From: Streptomyces sp. NBC_00162
GTDB lineage: Bacteria; Actinomycetota; Actinomycetes; Streptomycetales; Streptomycetaceae
Direction of reading: 5' to 3'
NCBI RefSeq assembly: GCF_024611995.1
Contig: NZ_CP102509.1
Span: forward strand, 806,001-870,000
Length of the DNA stretch: 64,000 nucleotides
The notes beneath the pieces are model-generated. The model was not told the DNA's origin and searched no databases. It saw nothing but the letters and a program-made list of their open reading frames with translations. How positions within the stretch are numbered: position 1 is the first letter of the stretch; every line of letters begins with the position of its first letter. Shown one piece after another: positions 8,205-42,867 of the stretch. The position numbers were made by a program, and so were the translations under genes.

Positions 8205-9110
8205 TCAGGGCGCGGCCCGGTCTGCCGCTTCTCGGGTGATGCCGGCGTAGAGACGCCAGAGGACCGGGCGGGCCTCGCCCTGTTCTCGGTCGTACAGGGC
8301 TGCCCAGCAACGGGCGACGAGCTCCCGGGCCTGGGTGCCGGGCCAGGGCTGGGGCAGGAGCTGCGGGGGCAGCAGCGGGTCGGGCTCCATGGCGCGTGTG
8401 AGTTCGGCGGCCAGTTCGACCCCGATGGTGAGCAGTGCGGACGGGGAGAGCGCGGCAGGGCCGGTGAGCCGGGCGAGGCGGGGCTGGGCGATACGGCTGA
8501 GGCGGTGGTAGCGGTCGGCGATCTCCTGCAAGGGCCACAGGAGACCGGCGAGTTCGTCAGGCTCCTGAGTGCCGCCCCTGCGCAGGTCCGCCGTGGTGAG
8601 GAGGGTGAGCGCGCCATGGGCTCCGAGGCGATGGGCCGCTTCTTCGACGTACGGCTCCCAGGCGTTGGCGCAGACGTACAGTCCGCCCTGGAGCGGAGCA
8701 CCGCCGAGGTGGACGAGGGTCTCGCGCAGGGAGTCCCGTACCGTGCGCGCCGATTCGGGCACCGCGAAGGCGGCCAGGTGCCAGACACCGTCCCAGGGCG
8801 CCAGCCCGGCATCCTGCTGGAATGCGTGCCGGAGGAAGTCCGCATTCGGGGCGAGGGCACGCGTGGTGTCCTCGGTCGCGTGCAGCTCCGCCTTGCGACC
8901 TCGGCCCTCGTGGGTGAACCGGCCTTCTGCCACGAGCCGTTTGATGCACAGCCGCACCTGCTGGTCGCTCATGCCCAGGGTGTTGGCGACGGTGTACAGC
9001 TCGTCGGCGCCGACGGTGCCGTCCTCGCGGATCAGCGCGTGGACGAGCATGCGGGTGGGGATCTCGACGCGGTCGGTCATCGTGTGGTCGGTCATCGTGT
9101 CGTCGGTCAT
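8205..9110 (-). CDS. PaaX family transcriptional regulator
   Basis: 301 residues. An N-terminal winged helix (MLVHALIREDGTVGADELYTV...SDQQVRLCIKRLVAEGRF) is followed by PaaX central and C-terminal domains (DGVWHLAAFAVPES, LRETLVHLGGAPLQGGLYV). The start overlaps the stop of the upstream acetyltransferase as ATGA, so translation is coupled. The first 15 codons are a threefold repeat of MTDxT/R with three in-frame ATGs 15 bases apart. PaaX proteins are repressors of aromatic-acid catabolism elsewhere; no such genes are nearby, so the target may be its own operon and the divergent hydrolase. Confidence 0.85.
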   Translation of the reverse strand: MTDDTMTDHTMTDRVEIPTRMLVHALIREDGTVGADELYTVANTLGMSDQQVRLCIKRLVAEGRFTHEGRGRKAELHATEDTTRALAPNADFLRHAFQQDAGLAPWDGVWHLAAFAVPESARTVRDSLRETLVHLGGAPLQGGLYVCANAWEPYVEEAAHRLGAHGALTLLTTADLRRGGTQEPDELAGLLWPLQEIADRYHRLSRIAQPRLARLTGPAALSPSALLTIGVELAAELTRAMEPDPLLPPQLLPQPWPGTQARELVARCWAALYDREQGEARPVLWRLYAGITREAADRAAP

Positions 9111-9757
9111 GGTGTGGACAGTCCTCTCGGCCCATTCGCCTCGACAGGGCGCCGCATGGTGGTCACCGCGCCGAACCCGAGCAGCCGGCGCAGGTAGGGC
9201 GTGGGCCGCGTCCGGACGGCCGTGAAGCCGCGCCGCTCGTACAGGGCCTTGGCGCGCGGGTTGGTGTCGATCACATCCAGTCTGATCTCCCGGCAGCCCT
9301 GCTCCGCCGCGACGGCGGCCACTTCCTCGATGAGCAGGCTTCCGACGCCGCGGCCGCGCATGCCCGGGTCGACGGCGATGCCGTCCATGACGAGCTGCCC
9401 GGGGGCCGGGTGCCGCTCGAACAGGGCGAGGAGCAGGAGTCGGTGCAGTCCTCGCAGGTGTCCGTACGTGCGCAGCACGGCGGAAGCCGATCCCCCGGTG
9501 AGGGCCCGGCCGCCGAGCTGGTAGCCGGCGAGGCCGACGAGCTGCCCGTCGAGCAGCGCGCACACCGCGCGATCGGCGTTCAGGTGGGCGGCCAGGAAGG
9601 CCACCGCCTTGTCCGGCGGGTTCAGGGCGGGGCCGAGTTTGCGGCCGAAGGCGTCCCAGTACAACTCGGCCGCCCGCCGCTCGGCTCCGGCCGGCACACC
9701 CCACCGGACTGTCACCGGTCCAGTGCCGGCGTCGGCGCCCGTCGCGTCCCGTCCCAT
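9107..9757 (-). CDS. GNAT family N-acetyltransferase
   Basis: 216 residues from the ATG at 9757, preceded by GAGGGGG. The acetyl-CoA binding motif A is clear: VDPGMRGRGVGSLLIEEVAAVAAEQG, followed by IRLDVIDTNPRAKALYERRGF (motif B). The substrate is unknown. First gene of a two-gene operon with the PaaX-type regulator, and divergent from a membrane-anchored alpha/beta hydrolase across a dyad-symmetric promoter. Confidence 0.85.
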   Translation of the reverse strand: MGRDATGADAGTGPVTVRWGVPAGAERRAAELYWDAFGRKLGPALNPPDKAVAFLAAHLNADRAVCALLDGQLVGLAGYQLGGRALTGGSASAVLRTYGHLRGLHRLLLLALFERHPAPGQLVMDGIAVDPGMRGRGVGSLLIEEVAAVAAEQGCREIRLDVIDTNPRAKALYERRGFTAVRTRPTPYLRRLLGFGAVTTMRRPVEANGPRGLSTP

Positions 9758-9794
9758 GCCGTACCCCCTCGCTCGCTGCAACCTCCACCCAAAT

Positions 9795-9830
9795 CTATCA
9801 CTCTCACGACGATCGTGGACTGAGTGATAG
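9795..9830. promoter_or_regulatory. 36-bp dyad, probable operator in divergent promoter
   Basis: Outer arms CTATCACTC (9795-9803) and GAGTGATAG (9822-9830) and inner ACGA/TCGT share the same centre; 14 of 18 positions pair. It lies between the GNAT-PaaX operon and the divergent hydrolase and is well placed to control both. The PaaX-type protein is the natural candidate binder. Confidence 0.55.
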
Positions 9831-9868
9831 CTTGCTGCGCAATCCCGAAACAGAGGCGGTCAGATCTC

Positions 9869-10954
9869 ATGTGCCCAAAGATCCAGCCCCGACGGCGCGG
9901 GCTCCGCATCGCCGCGTGGTCACTGGTCACGGTCCTGTTGGCAGCCGCCGGCCTCGTCGGTGTGGTGCTGTGGCAGAACTCCTACGCCATGGATGAGCAG
10001 CGGGTCTCCATCCGCAACGGCGGCCACACCCTCAACGGCGTACTGGCCACCCCCAAGGACGGCCGCAAGCACCACGGCCTGGTCGTTTACGTCCACGGCG
10101 ACGGCCCCGTCGGCGCCACCCACGACGATGGTTACAAGCCCATGTGGGAAGCGAACGCCAAGGCGGGGTACGCCTCCCTGTCCTGGGACAAGCCCGGCGT
10201 CGCGGGCGCACCCGGCAACTGGCTCGACCAGTCCATGGACGACCGGGCCGACGAGGCAGTCGCCGCCATCGCCTGGGCGCGCGCCCGCCCGGACATCGAC
10301 GGCGACCGGATCGGGCTCTGGGGCGCCAGCCAGGCGGGCTGGGTCCTGCCGAAGATCGCCGCCAAGACGCCCGTGAGCTTCGTCATCGCCGTCTCCCCCG
10401 CGATCAACTGGCTCCAGCAGGGCCGCTACAACCTCCTCTCCGAGCTGCGCGCCGACAACGCGTCGGCAGCCCGCACGGACGCCGCGATCGCCACGAGCAA
10501 CGCCAGACTCCGACTGCTGGAACGCCGCGCGACCTTCGAGGAGTACGTCAGGGCGATGGGCGACGACGCGAAGGGGATGACCGCCGATCGCTGGGGCTTC
10601 ATCTCCAAGAACTTCACCGCAGACGCCACACAAGACCTCCACGCCCTGCGCGGTATACCGGTGTTGCTGACCCTCGCAGGCCATGACATCAACGTGGACA
10701 CCGCCGACACGGAGCGCGTCTACCGCGAGGTGCTGGACGCGGGCGGTGCATTGACGGTCAAGCGCTATCCGGACGCGAGCCATTCCTTGCTCAAGCAGTC
10801 CATCGAGCAGTCGGAGCGCAGGACCAGCCTCACCGCGCTCTTCTCTCCCCGCTCGCTCTTCGCGGACGGATTCCTGGACGACCAACGACAGTTCCTCAAG
10901 GCCCCCGGCCGAGCGGGGCAAGCCGCGCTCTCTGTGGCGGAGGGGGTGCTGTAG
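9869..10954 (+). CDS. membrane-anchored alpha/beta hydrolase
   Basis: 361 residues from the ATG at 9869 (AGAGGCGG upstream). Residues 12-36 form one N-terminal transmembrane anchor (AAWSLVTVLLAAAGLVGVVLW), placing the domain outside the membrane. Hydrolase features: YVHGDGPVGATHDDG (oxyanion region), nucleophile Ser154 in LWGASQAGWV, an acid Asp in LTLAGHDINVD and the final His in DASHSLL. Resembles the dipeptidyl-peptidase/acyl-peptide hydrolase-like esterases; substrate unknown. Divergent from the GNAT-PaaX operon and likely co-regulated. Confidence 0.8.
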   Translation: MCPKIQPRRRGLRIAAWSLVTVLLAAAGLVGVVLWQNSYAMDEQRVSIRNGGHTLNGVLATPKDGRKHHGLVVYVHGDGPVGATHDDGYKPMWEANAKAGYASLSWDKPGVAGAPGNWLDQSMDDRADEAVAAIAWARARPDIDGDRIGLWGASQAGWVLPKIAAKTPVSFVIAVSPAINWLQQGRYNLLSELRADNASAARTDAAIATSNARLRLLERRATFEEYVRAMGDDAKGMTADRWGFISKNFTADATQDLHALRGIPVLLTLAGHDINVDTADTERVYREVLDAGGALTVKRYPDASHSLLKQSIEQSERRTSLTALFSPRSLFADGFLDDQRQFLKAPGRAGQAALSVAEGVL

Positions 10955-39628: not shown

Positions 39629-41611
39629 CTACGGGGCCGGGGACGGTCCGGGGTGGGGTTTGAGCTGGCGGAGGGTGTAGCCGTTGGTTGTCAGGTCGAG
39701 GGGCTTGGTGGTCTCTTTGAAGAGGTACTCGGCCCGCTCGTAGGACAGTCGGCGGCGGCCCGTGTCCGGGCAGAGATCGGCAGGTCCGGGTGTCCGGGCG
39801 GGTCCGGGTCGCCGGTCGGAGAGGAACACCGGCCCCCGGGTCCGGCCGGCCAGCAGCTCGGGCAGGAGCCGGGCGGTCCCGGAGCGCCAGGTCACCCACG
39901 TGTGGCCCGTGCGGGCCCGGCGGTCGTCCAGGTCCAGGTCCTCGACGTTCAGCGACAGGACGGCCTTCACCCCGGCCTCCGACTCGTGCAGGAGCCGCCA
40001 CAGCGTCTGTTCGCGCAGCGGCAGGTCCGGGCGGCTCCAGAGCGCCTCGAGCTGCACGGAGCCCAGCGCCTGCGTCCGGGAGCGGGTCTCGGCACGACGG
40101 TCCAGACCGGCCGCGAGGTCGCTCAGGGACGCCCACGCACAGAAGGACCGGACGGCCGAGCGGTGCCGGTTCCAGGTCGCGGCCGCTGCCTCGCCCCAGG
40201 CGGTCGCAAACACCCGCGCCACCTGGTCGGCCGTCAGCGAGGCCGGCGGCAGCTGGCCGCCGAGGGCCAGGCACAGGCGCCGGAGGGTCTGTCCGTACGA
40301 GCGGACCGTGGCCGCGTCCAGATCGTCGCGGCTCAGGAAGTCGTGGGCGGCCTGACCGAGCGTGGGACCGGGCGGGCCGGTGACCGTGATCTCGTCCGCG
40401 CGTCGGTGCAGAAAGGCGCGCTCGGCGGCGTTCCTCGTGAGGGACGCCGCCCGATGGAACTCCACCCGCGCTTCTTCGTGCCGGTCCAGGCGGGCCAGCA
40501 GGTCGCCCCTGACGCTGGGGAGGAGGTGGTAGTCGCGCAGTGCGGGATCGGTGGTCAGGGAGTCGACCAGGTCGAGGCCCTCCTGCGGCCCGTACGCAAA
40601 CCCGAGCGCCACCGCCCGGTTGAGCTGGACGATCGGTGTCGGCAGCAGCCGCGCCAACGCCCCGTACAGGGCTGCGATCTGGGACCAGTCGGTGTCCTCG
40701 GCGGTACGCGCCTGCGCATGGCACACGGCGATGGCCGCTTGCAGCAGGTACGGGCCGGGCGTGCCGCCGGCTTCCCGTGCCCGCAGCATCGCGGTGAAGC
40801 CGCGGCTGATGAGCAACTGGTCCCAGCGTCCCCTGTTCTGCTCGTGCAGCTGGACCGGCTCGCCCGACGGGCCGGTGCGCGCGGCCGAGCGGGAGGCCTG
40901 GATCTCCATCAGTGCGACCAGTGCGTGCACCTCGGCTTCCTGAGGTGCCAGCTCGGCCAGCAGCCGGCCCAGCCGCAGTGCTTCGAGGCAGAGCCCGGGC
41001 CGCATCAGGTCGTCGCCGGAGGTCGCCGAGTAACCCTCGTTGAAGATCAGGTAGATGACCTCCAGCACTGACGAGAGGCGCTCGGCCAGTTCCGGGCCCT
41101 CCGGCAGGTCGAACGGCACGCGCTCCTCGGCCAACGTCCGCTTGGCTCCGGCGATGCGCTGGGTGATCACCGTCCCGGTGACGAGGAAGGCCCGCGCGAT
41201 CTCCTCGGCCGTAAGACCGCCGAGCAGCCGGAGCGTCAGTGCTGCTCGGGCCCCGGTCGGCAGTACGGGGTGGCAGGAGATGAGCATCAGCCGCAGGACG
41301 TCGTCCTGTTCGGGGTCCTGCTGCTGTTCCAGCTCGTGGGCGAGCTGCTCCTGCTTGTGCGTCAGCCGCTGGGAGCGCCGGATGTGGTCGACGGCCCGCC
41401 GCTTGGCGGTGGTCGTCAGCCAGGCGCCGGGGTTGTCCGGGACGCCCGTGCCGGGCCACTGCTCGAGCGCGGCGACGAGCGCGTCCTGGGCCAGCTCCTC
41501 GGCGAGGCCGACGTCGCGCACCATCCGCGTGAGCGCTGCGATGATTTTGGCCGACTCGAGCTTCCAGACCGCGTCTATCGTGCGATGGGTATCCAGCACA
41601 GGGACGATCAC
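39629..41611 (-). CDS. ECF42-type sigma factor fused to a degenerate tyrosine recombinase
   Basis: 660 residues in one open frame. Residues 1-~180 are sigma regions 2 and 4 (LAEELAQDALVAALEQWP, GGLTAEEIARAFLVTGTVITQRI); 180-408 is the DUF6596/TPR-like C-terminal extension diagnostic of the ECF42 group (VIYLIFNEGYSATSGDDL, AALYGALARLLPTPIVQLNR). Residues 412-505 are an integrase core-binding domain (AHDFLSRDDLDAATVRSYGQ) and 515-660 a catalytic-domain relic (LLHESEAGVKAVLSLNVEDL). The first catalytic Arg is Lys549 and the protein stops at YTLRQLKP, before the HxxR and Tyr motifs, so no strand exchange is expected. The adjacent DGPF gene is the usual ECF42 partner. Confidence 0.85.
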   Translation of the reverse strand: MIVPVLDTHRTIDAVWKLESAKIIAALTRMVRDVGLAEELAQDALVAALEQWPGTGVPDNPGAWLTTTAKRRAVDHIRRSQRLTHKQEQLAHELEQQQDPEQDDVLRLMLISCHPVLPTGARAALTLRLLGGLTAEEIARAFLVTGTVITQRIAGAKRTLAEERVPFDLPEGPELAERLSSVLEVIYLIFNEGYSATSGDDLMRPGLCLEALRLGRLLAELAPQEAEVHALVALMEIQASRSAARTGPSGEPVQLHEQNRGRWDQLLISRGFTAMLRAREAGGTPGPYLLQAAIAVCHAQARTAEDTDWSQIAALYGALARLLPTPIVQLNRAVALGFAYGPQEGLDLVDSLTTDPALRDYHLLPSVRGDLLARLDRHEEARVEFHRAASLTRNAAERAFLHRRADEITVTGPPGPTLGQAAHDFLSRDDLDAATVRSYGQTLRRLCLALGGQLPPASLTADQVARVFATAWGEAAAATWNRHRSAVRSFCAWASLSDLAAGLDRRAETRSRTQALGSVQLEALWSRPDLPLREQTLWRLLHESEAGVKAVLSLNVEDLDLDDRRARTGHTWVTWRSGTARLLPELLAGRTRGPVFLSDRRPGPARTPGPADLCPDTGRRRLSYERAEYLFKETTKPLDLTTNGYTLRQLKPHPGPSPAP

Positions 41612-41701: not shown

Positions 41702-42025
41702 TCACGGACCAAAAACCTGCTGAACCACGCTCTCGCCGTCACCAACGATCCTGCGGAAGCGGCGGGCCAGCTCGATCGCCTCCTCCTTGGAGCGGACCTC
41801 GATCAGCGCGAAGCCGGCCACGGCCTCCTTGGCCTCGGCGAACGGCCCGTCCGTCACCGTGATTTCGTCGCCGGCCGAGGTCACCAGGACGCCGACCGGC
41901 TCCAGACCACCCGTGGCCAGCAGAACACCGGCCGCCGTCAGCTCCTCGATGAACTTGCCCATTTCGACGTACAACTTCTCGTCGGGCGCGGTGTCGGAAG
42001 GCCTGGTCGTCATCAGGTAGCGCAT
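41702..42025 (-). CDS. YciI-like DGPF-domain protein
   Basis: 107 residues, AGAGG upstream. MRYLMTTRPSDTAPDEKLYV and the motif TDGPFAEAKEAVAGFALIEV define the DGPF/YCII-related family. In actinobacteria such genes are the usual neighbours and targets of ECF42 sigma factors. It lies upstream of the sigma gene on the same strand. Biochemical role unknown. Confidence 0.9.
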   Translation of the reverse strand: MRYLMTTRPSDTAPDEKLYVEMGKFIEELTAAGVLLATGGLEPVGVLVTSAGDEITVTDGPFAEAKEAVAGFALIEVRSKEEAIELARRFRRIVGDGESVVQQVFGP

Positions 42026-42084
42026 GGGGTTGCCTCTTCTCGTCGTGCAGTGCTTCTGCCTTGCCTACACGTCGAACAAGGACA

Positions 42085-42116
42085 TGTGACAGGGAACGCA
42101 GCCGTTCCCTGTCACA
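42085..42116. promoter_or_regulatory. perfect 14-bp inverted repeat in the DGPF/DUF998 divergent promoter
   Basis: TGTGACAGGGAACG (42085-42098) and its exact complement (42103-42116) separated by CAGC. Its position between divergent starts makes it a probable operator rather than a terminator. Confidence 0.55.
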
Positions 42117-42177
42117 TTGCCGGATCGACGTGCAGGCAAGAACCGAACACGACGAACGAACCCGAGAGGCACACACC

Positions 42178-42867
42178 ATGACCACCCGGACCCCCACCAG
42201 CGCGGCTATCGCCGCTTCCCCCGCCGCGACCGGAACCCCGGCCCGGTCCGCCACCCGCTCCCTGCTCACCTGCGTGGTCGTAGCGTCACCGCTGTGGGCG
42301 GTCGTCTCCCTGACCCAGGCCGCCGGCCGCGACGGCTTCGACATCACCCGCCACCCCCTGAGCGCGCTGAGCAACGGCTCCCTCGGCTGGCTCCAGATCG
42401 CCAACTTCCTGGTCGCCGGAGCCCTGCTCGCCATCGGGGCGACCGGTCTGCGCAGGGCTCTGCACGGCACCCCGGGGAGCACCTGGGCACCCCGACTTGT
42501 ACGGATCAGCGGCATCGGCATGATGGCCGCGGGACTGTTCGTCATGGACCCGGTCGACGGCTTCCCCGCAGGCACCCCCGCCGGGGAAGCCGCCGCACTC
42601 ACCTGGCGCAGCTACGCCCACTTCGGCGCCGGATCGATCACCTTCACCTCGCTGATTGCCGCCTGCTACGTCCTGGGCCGTCACTTCAGCCGCATCGGTC
42701 ACCGCGGTTACGCCATCGCCTCCCGCGTGGCCGGCACCACCCTCCTGATCGGCAACGGCTGGGCGATGGGCGGCGGTAAGGCCGGCACCCTGACCCTGGC
42801 CGTCGGTGCCATCACCGCGATGCTCTCGATCTCCGTGATCGCCAACCGGTACCGTCGCATCCACTGA
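42178..42867 (+). CDS. DUF998 membrane protein
   Basis: 229 residues, GAGAGG upstream. Six hydrophobic segments and the DUF998 signature GFDITRHPLSALSNGSLGWLQIANF near residues 52-76, then GLFVMDPVDGFPAGTP. Members are multi-pass membrane proteins of unknown function, often next to ECF or TetR regulators. Divergent from the DGPF gene across the perfect palindrome. Confidence 0.85.
   Translation: MTTRTPTSAAIAASPAATGTPARSATRSLLTCVVVASPLWAVVSLTQAAGRDGFDITRHPLSALSNGSLGWLQIANFLVAGALLAIGATGLRRALHGTPGSTWAPRLVRISGIGMMAAGLFVMDPVDGFPAGTPAGEAAALTWRSYAHFGAGSITFTSLIAACYVLGRHFSRIGHRGYAIASRVAGTTLLIGNGWAMGGGKAGTLTLAVGAITAMLSISVIANRYRRIH

Follow-up and report, generated by a model that had tools for sequence, protein, structure and literature searches.

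Sequence comparison indicates that an ECF42 sigma factor encoded in the window (the whole stretch of 64,000 nucleotides of Streptomyces sp. NBC_00162 DNA analysed here) has probably acquired the DNA-binding body of a Xer-like tyrosine recombinase from actinobacteria, along with the 13-bp half-site that this body would bind. Sigma factors are thought to pick promoters via sigma2 and sigma4. In this lineage, the balance tips modestly towards recognition of the −35 region having passed from sigma4 to the recombinase-derived clamp, with the half-site captured as a promoter element; as part of the same modestly favored reading, relatives that have a separate upstream box and a TGTCGA-type promoter would preserve an intermediate of the hand-over. 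On this view, the dead recombinase domain would at first have assisted sigma4 in recognizing the promoter and later have taken over most of that task. The fusion protein and its parts are as follows.

39629..41611, minus strand: coding sequence of the ECF42 sigma factor–dead tyrosine recombinase fusion (660 aa, GTG start)
40379..41611, minus strand: ECF42 part, residues 1–411, with sigma2, sigma4 and a DUF6596/TPR extension
41141..41182, minus strand: degenerate sigma4 recognition helix VTGTVITQRIAGAK, residues 144–157, including Ala154 and Gly155
39632..40378, minus strand: recombinase-derived domain, residues 412–660, comprising the core-binding domain and the N-terminal half of the catalytic fold

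The minus-strand frame 41611..39629 runs through all 660 codons with zero interruptions, and homologues have the same architecture, confirming the in-frame fusion proposed by a first-pass annotation; since homologues carry the same fusion, an assembly error is excluded. Pfam places Sigma70_r2 at residues 23–82 (4.1e-11, above cut-off), Sigma70_r4_2 at residues 108–159 (1.2e-05; 25.2 bits against a curated cut-off of 25.7) and DUF6596 (PF20239) at residues 178–278 (1.9e-35, above cut-off). The parts that define ECF42 are therefore present: sigma2, sigma4 (0.5 bit short) and the C-terminal TPR/DUF6596 extension, a part for which protein interaction is proposed in the accessible sections of two papers (PMC8999054, PMC9023288). 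The expected end of such proteins near residue 410 is borne out by all 73 unfused ECF42 proteins measured, which stop at window-equivalent residues 407–435 (median 411); because this includes an unfused paralog of the same genome (L112), the extension past residue ~411 is genuine. The window’s genome has two more ECF42 paralogs lacking a recombinase part (L112 and L113, at G000:C1:7623464-7624720 and 7949118-7950227), and the review PMC8999054 names Sven_0747, Sven_4377 and Sven_7131 as ECF42 sigma factors of S. venezuelae.

Beyond the ECF42 part, the predicted 250-residue integrase-like portion with a core-binding and a partial catalytic domain was recovered, with Phage_int_SAM_1 above cut-off at residues 433–494 and the core-binding and catalytic-domain fold of tyrosine recombinases recognizable across residues 412–660. 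The full-length fusion was modeled with a pLDDT of 82.2, and the predicted structural neighbors of the recombinase-derived domain include recombinase-fold repressors, although the alignment behind the domain model contained full-length recombinases and may favor their fold. The R-K-H-R-H/W-Y set of active recombinases is incomplete in the window’s protein. The first catalytic Arg, initially read as Lys, aligns instead to Gly547 (Gly in 99 of the 112 complete fusions aligned, that is, 111 listed homologues of 600–720 aa and the window’s own protein), and Lys549 lies two residues further. The protein was also thought to end before both HxxR and Tyr; the β-hairpin Lys and the catalytic Tyr are indeed missing in 112/112 complete fusions, but the end lies inside box II, where HxLRH has become R648-Q-L-K651-P (H to R648, R to K651). 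Despite this catalytic loss, the core-binding motifs are invariant across the aligned fusions.

The fusion is real and is not an integration scar, as had been considered, for it is conserved, grouped in the sigma tree and under purifying selection. With residues 405–660 as query, at least 630 proteins were retrieved at E ≤ 1e-3, and 111 of the 120 matches listed are 600–720 aa long. Many actinobacteria carry such fusions; hosts include Streptomyces, Streptosporangium, Microtetraspora, Planomonospora, Amycolatopsis, Actinoplanes and others. A quick, midpoint-rooted sigma tree, computed without the too-short L113, separates 31 fused rows (30 distinct) from 73 unfused rows by a branch with SH-aLRT 98, and the fused group adjoins two unfused Actinomadura rows. 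In the tree of the recombinase part, restricted to fusions of 600–720 aa, 61 of these are likewise set apart by one branch (SH-aLRT 99). The dN/dS values, from 15 of 16 sequences (L107 left out), indicate purifying selection on the fusion and on the recombinase remnant, the recombinase-derived domain lying slightly above the TPR part (0.13–0.31). Among 246 genomes sampled from the genus, at least 10 carry the fusion, pointing to a patchy distribution; carrier counts are lower bounds, since the genome searches scored few candidates per genome. A linear plasmid of Streptomyces sp. NBC_00250 (L188) carries the module in its entirety, from DUF998 through the inverted boxes and YCII to the fusion, and such plasmid-borne copies may help explain the patchiness. 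In public records, the recombinase-derived part is often annotated as a separate ‘site-specific integrase’ of ~250 aa (P0125, P0126, P0128 and similar), by which the family may be undercounted. By eye, a 362-aa protein from Catenuloplanes (P0233) seems to be devoid of sigma2 and of a large share of the TPR extension while keeping sigma4 and the recombinase-derived domain.

Upstream of the fusion, the window contains the following features.

41702..42025, minus strand: YCII-domain gene directly upstream of the fusion, presumed to share its operon
42071..42074, minus strand: putative −10 element CGAC of the YCII-fusion operon
42084..42117, no strand: inverted pair of recombinase-type half-sites, ATGTGACAGGGAA-N8-TTCCCTGTCACAT
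42084..42096, minus strand: half-site oriented towards YCII and the fusion, located in the −35/spacer region
42105..42117, plus strand: half-site facing DUF998
42126..42129, plus strand: putative −10 element CGAC of DUF998
42178..42867, plus strand: divergent DUF998 gene, a candidate target

The YCII gene, which we take to be the ECF42 neighbor labeled DGPF, lies just upstream of the fusion in 31/31 distinct fused loci and beside unfused ECF42 in 60/73 loci. (Thirty-two fused loci were collected, of which L110 is the same locus as L010; L105 and L188 have a 300-base stretch in common and are not fully independent.) The divergent DUF998 gene accompanies 25 of the 31 distinct fused loci versus 1 of 74 unfused loci, with flanks of varying length. 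From the unfused loci, we derived an ECF42 promoter of the form TGTCGA-N~17-CGAC; in its strict form, TGTCGA-N15..19-CG[A/T]C, it precedes YCII in 51 of 60 unfused operons, and the promoter of the paralog L112 is of this type. In the window’s subclade, the TGTCGA promoter is missing in 24/24 loci while the −10 CGAC is retained, and an alignment anchored on CGAC places the 13-bp box where TGTCGA and the adjoining spacer would be. The first fused set yielded 29 distinct TTCCCTGTCACAT boxes from 17 distinct loci; each of the 13 columns carries at least 1.79 bits (31 boxes, duplicate locus included), followed by a variable gap of 8–9 nt and then by CGACG at 2.0 bits. At most loci, two boxes form an inverted repeat with 8–9 bp between its arms, one arm per divergent promoter, and in L170 both arms show the identical base change (TTCCCTGCCACAT).

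In the window’s genome, the exact 13-mer has only two copies, both at the fusion locus. Of the 246 genus genomes, 9 have the strict composite motif, all of them fusion carriers, and each of its 17 matches belongs to the fusion module (for G399 next to DUF998, ~3 kb from YCII); the tenth carrier, G611, has boxes with one mismatch (L108). The exact palindrome was found in 5 of 394 genomes of the class, four times at fusions and once at a free recombinase operon. Two other roles for the box were considered and set aside. A terminator or hairpin was ruled out by the presence of the box in single and tandem direct copies. An ordinary sigma4 −35 element (TGTCAC) with a short spacer was judged unlikely, as only 10–11 nt would then separate it from CGAC, versus ~17 nt.

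A second sub-type of the fusion, found in five genomes (L163–L166, L169), has a recombinase that runs full length through the Tyr position, with Arg I replaced by Pro in 5/5 and Tyr by Phe in four and Leu in one; other fusions, the window’s included, stop at box II. The hosts are probably Microbispora, given that the M. hainanensis protein P0199 is nearly identical to the C-terminal part of these fusions. P0195, P0199 and P0218, classed as free recombinases, are probably C-terminal parts of fusions of this type, so that catalytic counts for the ‘free’ class are slightly understated. In the sigma tree, the five form, with L168 (G911), a subclade next to the 25 other fused rows. There, the boxes are separate: a single box or a tandem pair precedes a TGTCGA-type promoter, whose −35 is exactly TGTCGA in 3/6 and GGTCGA, CGTCGA or TGTCTG in the rest; in L164, L166 and L168, the boxes lie 28–41 bp before the −35. 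L168 is cut off at box II, yet it groups with the full-length type, its tandem boxes are separate and its sigma4 helix is canonical. Truncation of the recombinase thus does not track sigma4 decay exactly, and truncation and hand-over were not one event; the recombinase may have been truncated repeatedly, or before the hand-over.

The sigma4 recognition helix changed in the lineage that has the box at the −35, so that the loss of sigma4 reading coincides with the replacement of TGTCGA by the half-site. Unfused ECF42 proteins have V-R-A-K in this helix (Arg in 73/73, Val in 69/73), and both Val and Arg are kept in the six rows of the separate-box subclade. The window’s protein has Ala154 and Gly155 in their place; among the 24 rows of its subclade, Val has become Ala in 24/24, and the Arg position holds Gly (7), Ala (7), Asp (4), Lys (2) or, once each, Glu, Thr, Ser and Arg. 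Variability was compared between these 24 rows and 32 actinobacterial unfused proteins, with L110 left out here and from the matrix scoring below: the window’s subclade has the lower mean variability (0.655 vs 0.765 bits for the unfused set), and the five highest of 378 overlapping 14-residue windows by excess variability all overlap the sigma4 helix.

These observations suggest how the module might work. The recombinase-derived clamp would bind the TTCCCTGTCACAT half-site and position the sigma factor and RNA polymerase at two divergent promoters, those of the YCII-sigma operon and of DUF998; as polymerase would be placed at the fusion’s own promoter as well as at that of DUF998, the switch would be local and self-reinforcing. 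In the separate-box subclade (the five full-length fusions and L168), the clamp would sit on the upstream site and sigma4 on the TGTCGA-type −35. In the window’s subclade, the recombinase domain probably took over −35 reading, given the half-site in the −35 region, the loss of TGTCGA and the decayed sigma4 helix, and sigma2 would still read CGAC. The earlier suggestion that the remnant serves as an additional DNA-binding module and redirects the sigma factor is thus strongly supported by the invariant core-binding motifs, the half-site in fused promoters and the decayed recognition helix; the binding as such we infer.

The same box position would also suit an autorepressor akin to MrpR, in which the recombinase-derived domain binds the box and blocks the promoter while sigma4 reads an altered −35. 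The overlap of the box with the −35 region in the window’s subclade fits this alternative, as does the existence of MrpR, a known recombinase-fold repressor lacking recombinase function as far as the accessible part of its description goes, whose kind appears among the structural neighbors of the domain. We regard it as unlikely, because the boxes of the other subclade lie upstream of the promoter, an activator-like position, and because the sigma4 helix has become variable rather than uniformly re-specified.

Half-sites of this type also precede free recombinases. In L177, an intact free recombinase (9032-9979; PF00589 and PF02899) is 57% identical to the window’s domain and belongs to an apparent operon headed by a 13-7-13 palindrome, ATGTGACAGGGAA-TAGCCAA-TTCCCTGTCACAT. 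The palindrome lies ~0.9 kb upstream of the gene; two frames lie in between, a 116-aa ORF and a broken one resembling ParA. In this region of L177 (8504-9979 and 10605-11867), the recombinase adjoins a frameshifted ParA-like ORF and a reverse-transcriptase-like ORF (both identified by eye), which suggests a decaying plasmid-derived element. In the free relatives L142, L143, L146, L148 and L151, TTCTCTGTCACAT-like sites stand just before the recombinase gene, and all but the first have an inverted pair and one more copy standing alone; an S. longwoodensis plasmid (L185) has the same kind of sites before its recombinase gene, and more distant free relatives have TTATCTGCGATA-like sites. Altogether, the half-site pattern was seen in 13 of 19 regions upstream of free relatives, five of them of the TGTCAC type, and not in the other six. 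The layout in L142, L143, L146, L148, L151, L152, L155, L156, L159, L160, L185, L186 and L187 seems often to be an inverted pair, then a solitary half-site after GACTC, then the gene. Across this family of plasmid and chromosomal recombinases, the half-site differs by group (TTCTCTGTCACA, TTATCTGCGATA and others), possibly reflecting a recombinase-site recognition code. Residues R445, W480, H483, E628 and K632, which separate TGTCAC-type from TGCGAT-type free recombinases and are common to the fusions, are candidate readers, from sets of only 7 sequences and of 4 out of 9, which are confounded by phylogeny.

A matrix built from 13 sites of five free loci (L177 excluded, one loose L143 match left out), picked with the box already known, scores 14 or more in 6/6 promoters of the separate-box subclade and in 23/24 of the window’s subclade, but in 1/73 unfused promoters. 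The exceptions to the pattern of box and helix are L105, with its box pair ~3 kb away beside DUF998 and not at YCII; L009 and L025, with a box only toward the divergent gene; L171, a member of the window’s subclade that retains the recognition-helix Arg (two others have Lys); L168, described above; and the unfused L033, which scores as box-bearing. Further points against the proposed reading are the ~0.9 kb between palindrome and recombinase gene in L177, the six free-relative regions in which the pattern found no half-site, and the slightly raised dN/dS of the recombinase-derived domain. Co-occurrence alone proves little, because box and fusion are of one ancestry; the case leans on three things: boxes that stand apart in one subclade, a free recombinase operon headed by the identical 13-mer, and the decay of sigma4.

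The same points bear on the idea that sigma4 itself was re-specified to read a longer box, the recombinase remnant only stabilizing or regulating the protein. Helix and −35 did change in the same lineage. We nevertheless find this improbable: the conserved 13-bp box is far longer than an ECF42 −35, the helix is variable versus a nearly invariant box, the box stands apart from the −35 where sigma4 is canonical, and the identical 13-mer heads a free recombinase operon. That the box is the operator of an unrelated regulator and the remnant a neutral relic, as the terminator-like flag that a consensus scan gave the palindrome could hint, is very improbable indeed, since the remnant is under purifying selection with invariant core-binding motifs, a hairpin is at odds with the single and tandem direct copies, and, in an ORF comparison of seven free-relative loci, the matches that could be placed by eye fall on the recombinase gene, on overlapping frames or on the stretch directly before it.

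If capture and hand-over took place as proposed, promoter specificity would be replaceable by domain capture, with a recombinase site that started out next to the promoter and ended up within it, and the lineage would have left natural intermediates. This would suggest a new bacterial mode of promoter choice and a sigma factor whose promoter code is long and very specific, the exact composite motif occurring only at the fusion module among the 246 genus genomes. In the literature searched, much of it accessible only in part, we found no description of −35 recognition by a recombinase-derived domain, nor of a sigma–recombinase fusion, although the key ECF42 papers may mention the latter.

Compared with known systems, the fusion resembles ECF42 in its sigma2/sigma4 regions, TPR-type C-terminal extension, YCII neighbor and CGAC −10 element, all as in unfused loci; it differs in the additional recombinase-derived domain, in the 13-bp half-site that replaces or supplements the TGTCGA −35 and, in the window’s subclade, in the decayed sigma4 recognition helix. 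With Xer-like tyrosine recombinases encoded on actinobacterial chromosomes and plasmids (L177 9032-9979, L185 and the pFAJ2600 integrase), it shares the core-binding domain, the catalytic-domain fold and the type of half-site, but it lacks Arg I, the hairpin Lys and Tyr, has an altered box II and is joined to a sigma factor. The use of a recombinase fold for transcription control has parallels in MrpR/YopR of SPbeta and, judging by PDB titles alone, SroF of phi3T. MrpR, which has lost recombinase function and controls transcription according to the available portion of PMC10516654, offers the clearest earlier example of a dead recombinase that regulates transcription, and the fusion likewise has the fold without the catalysis. 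However, MrpR/YopR and SroF are stand-alone phage repressors, whereas the domain described here is part of a sigma factor and is probably activating.
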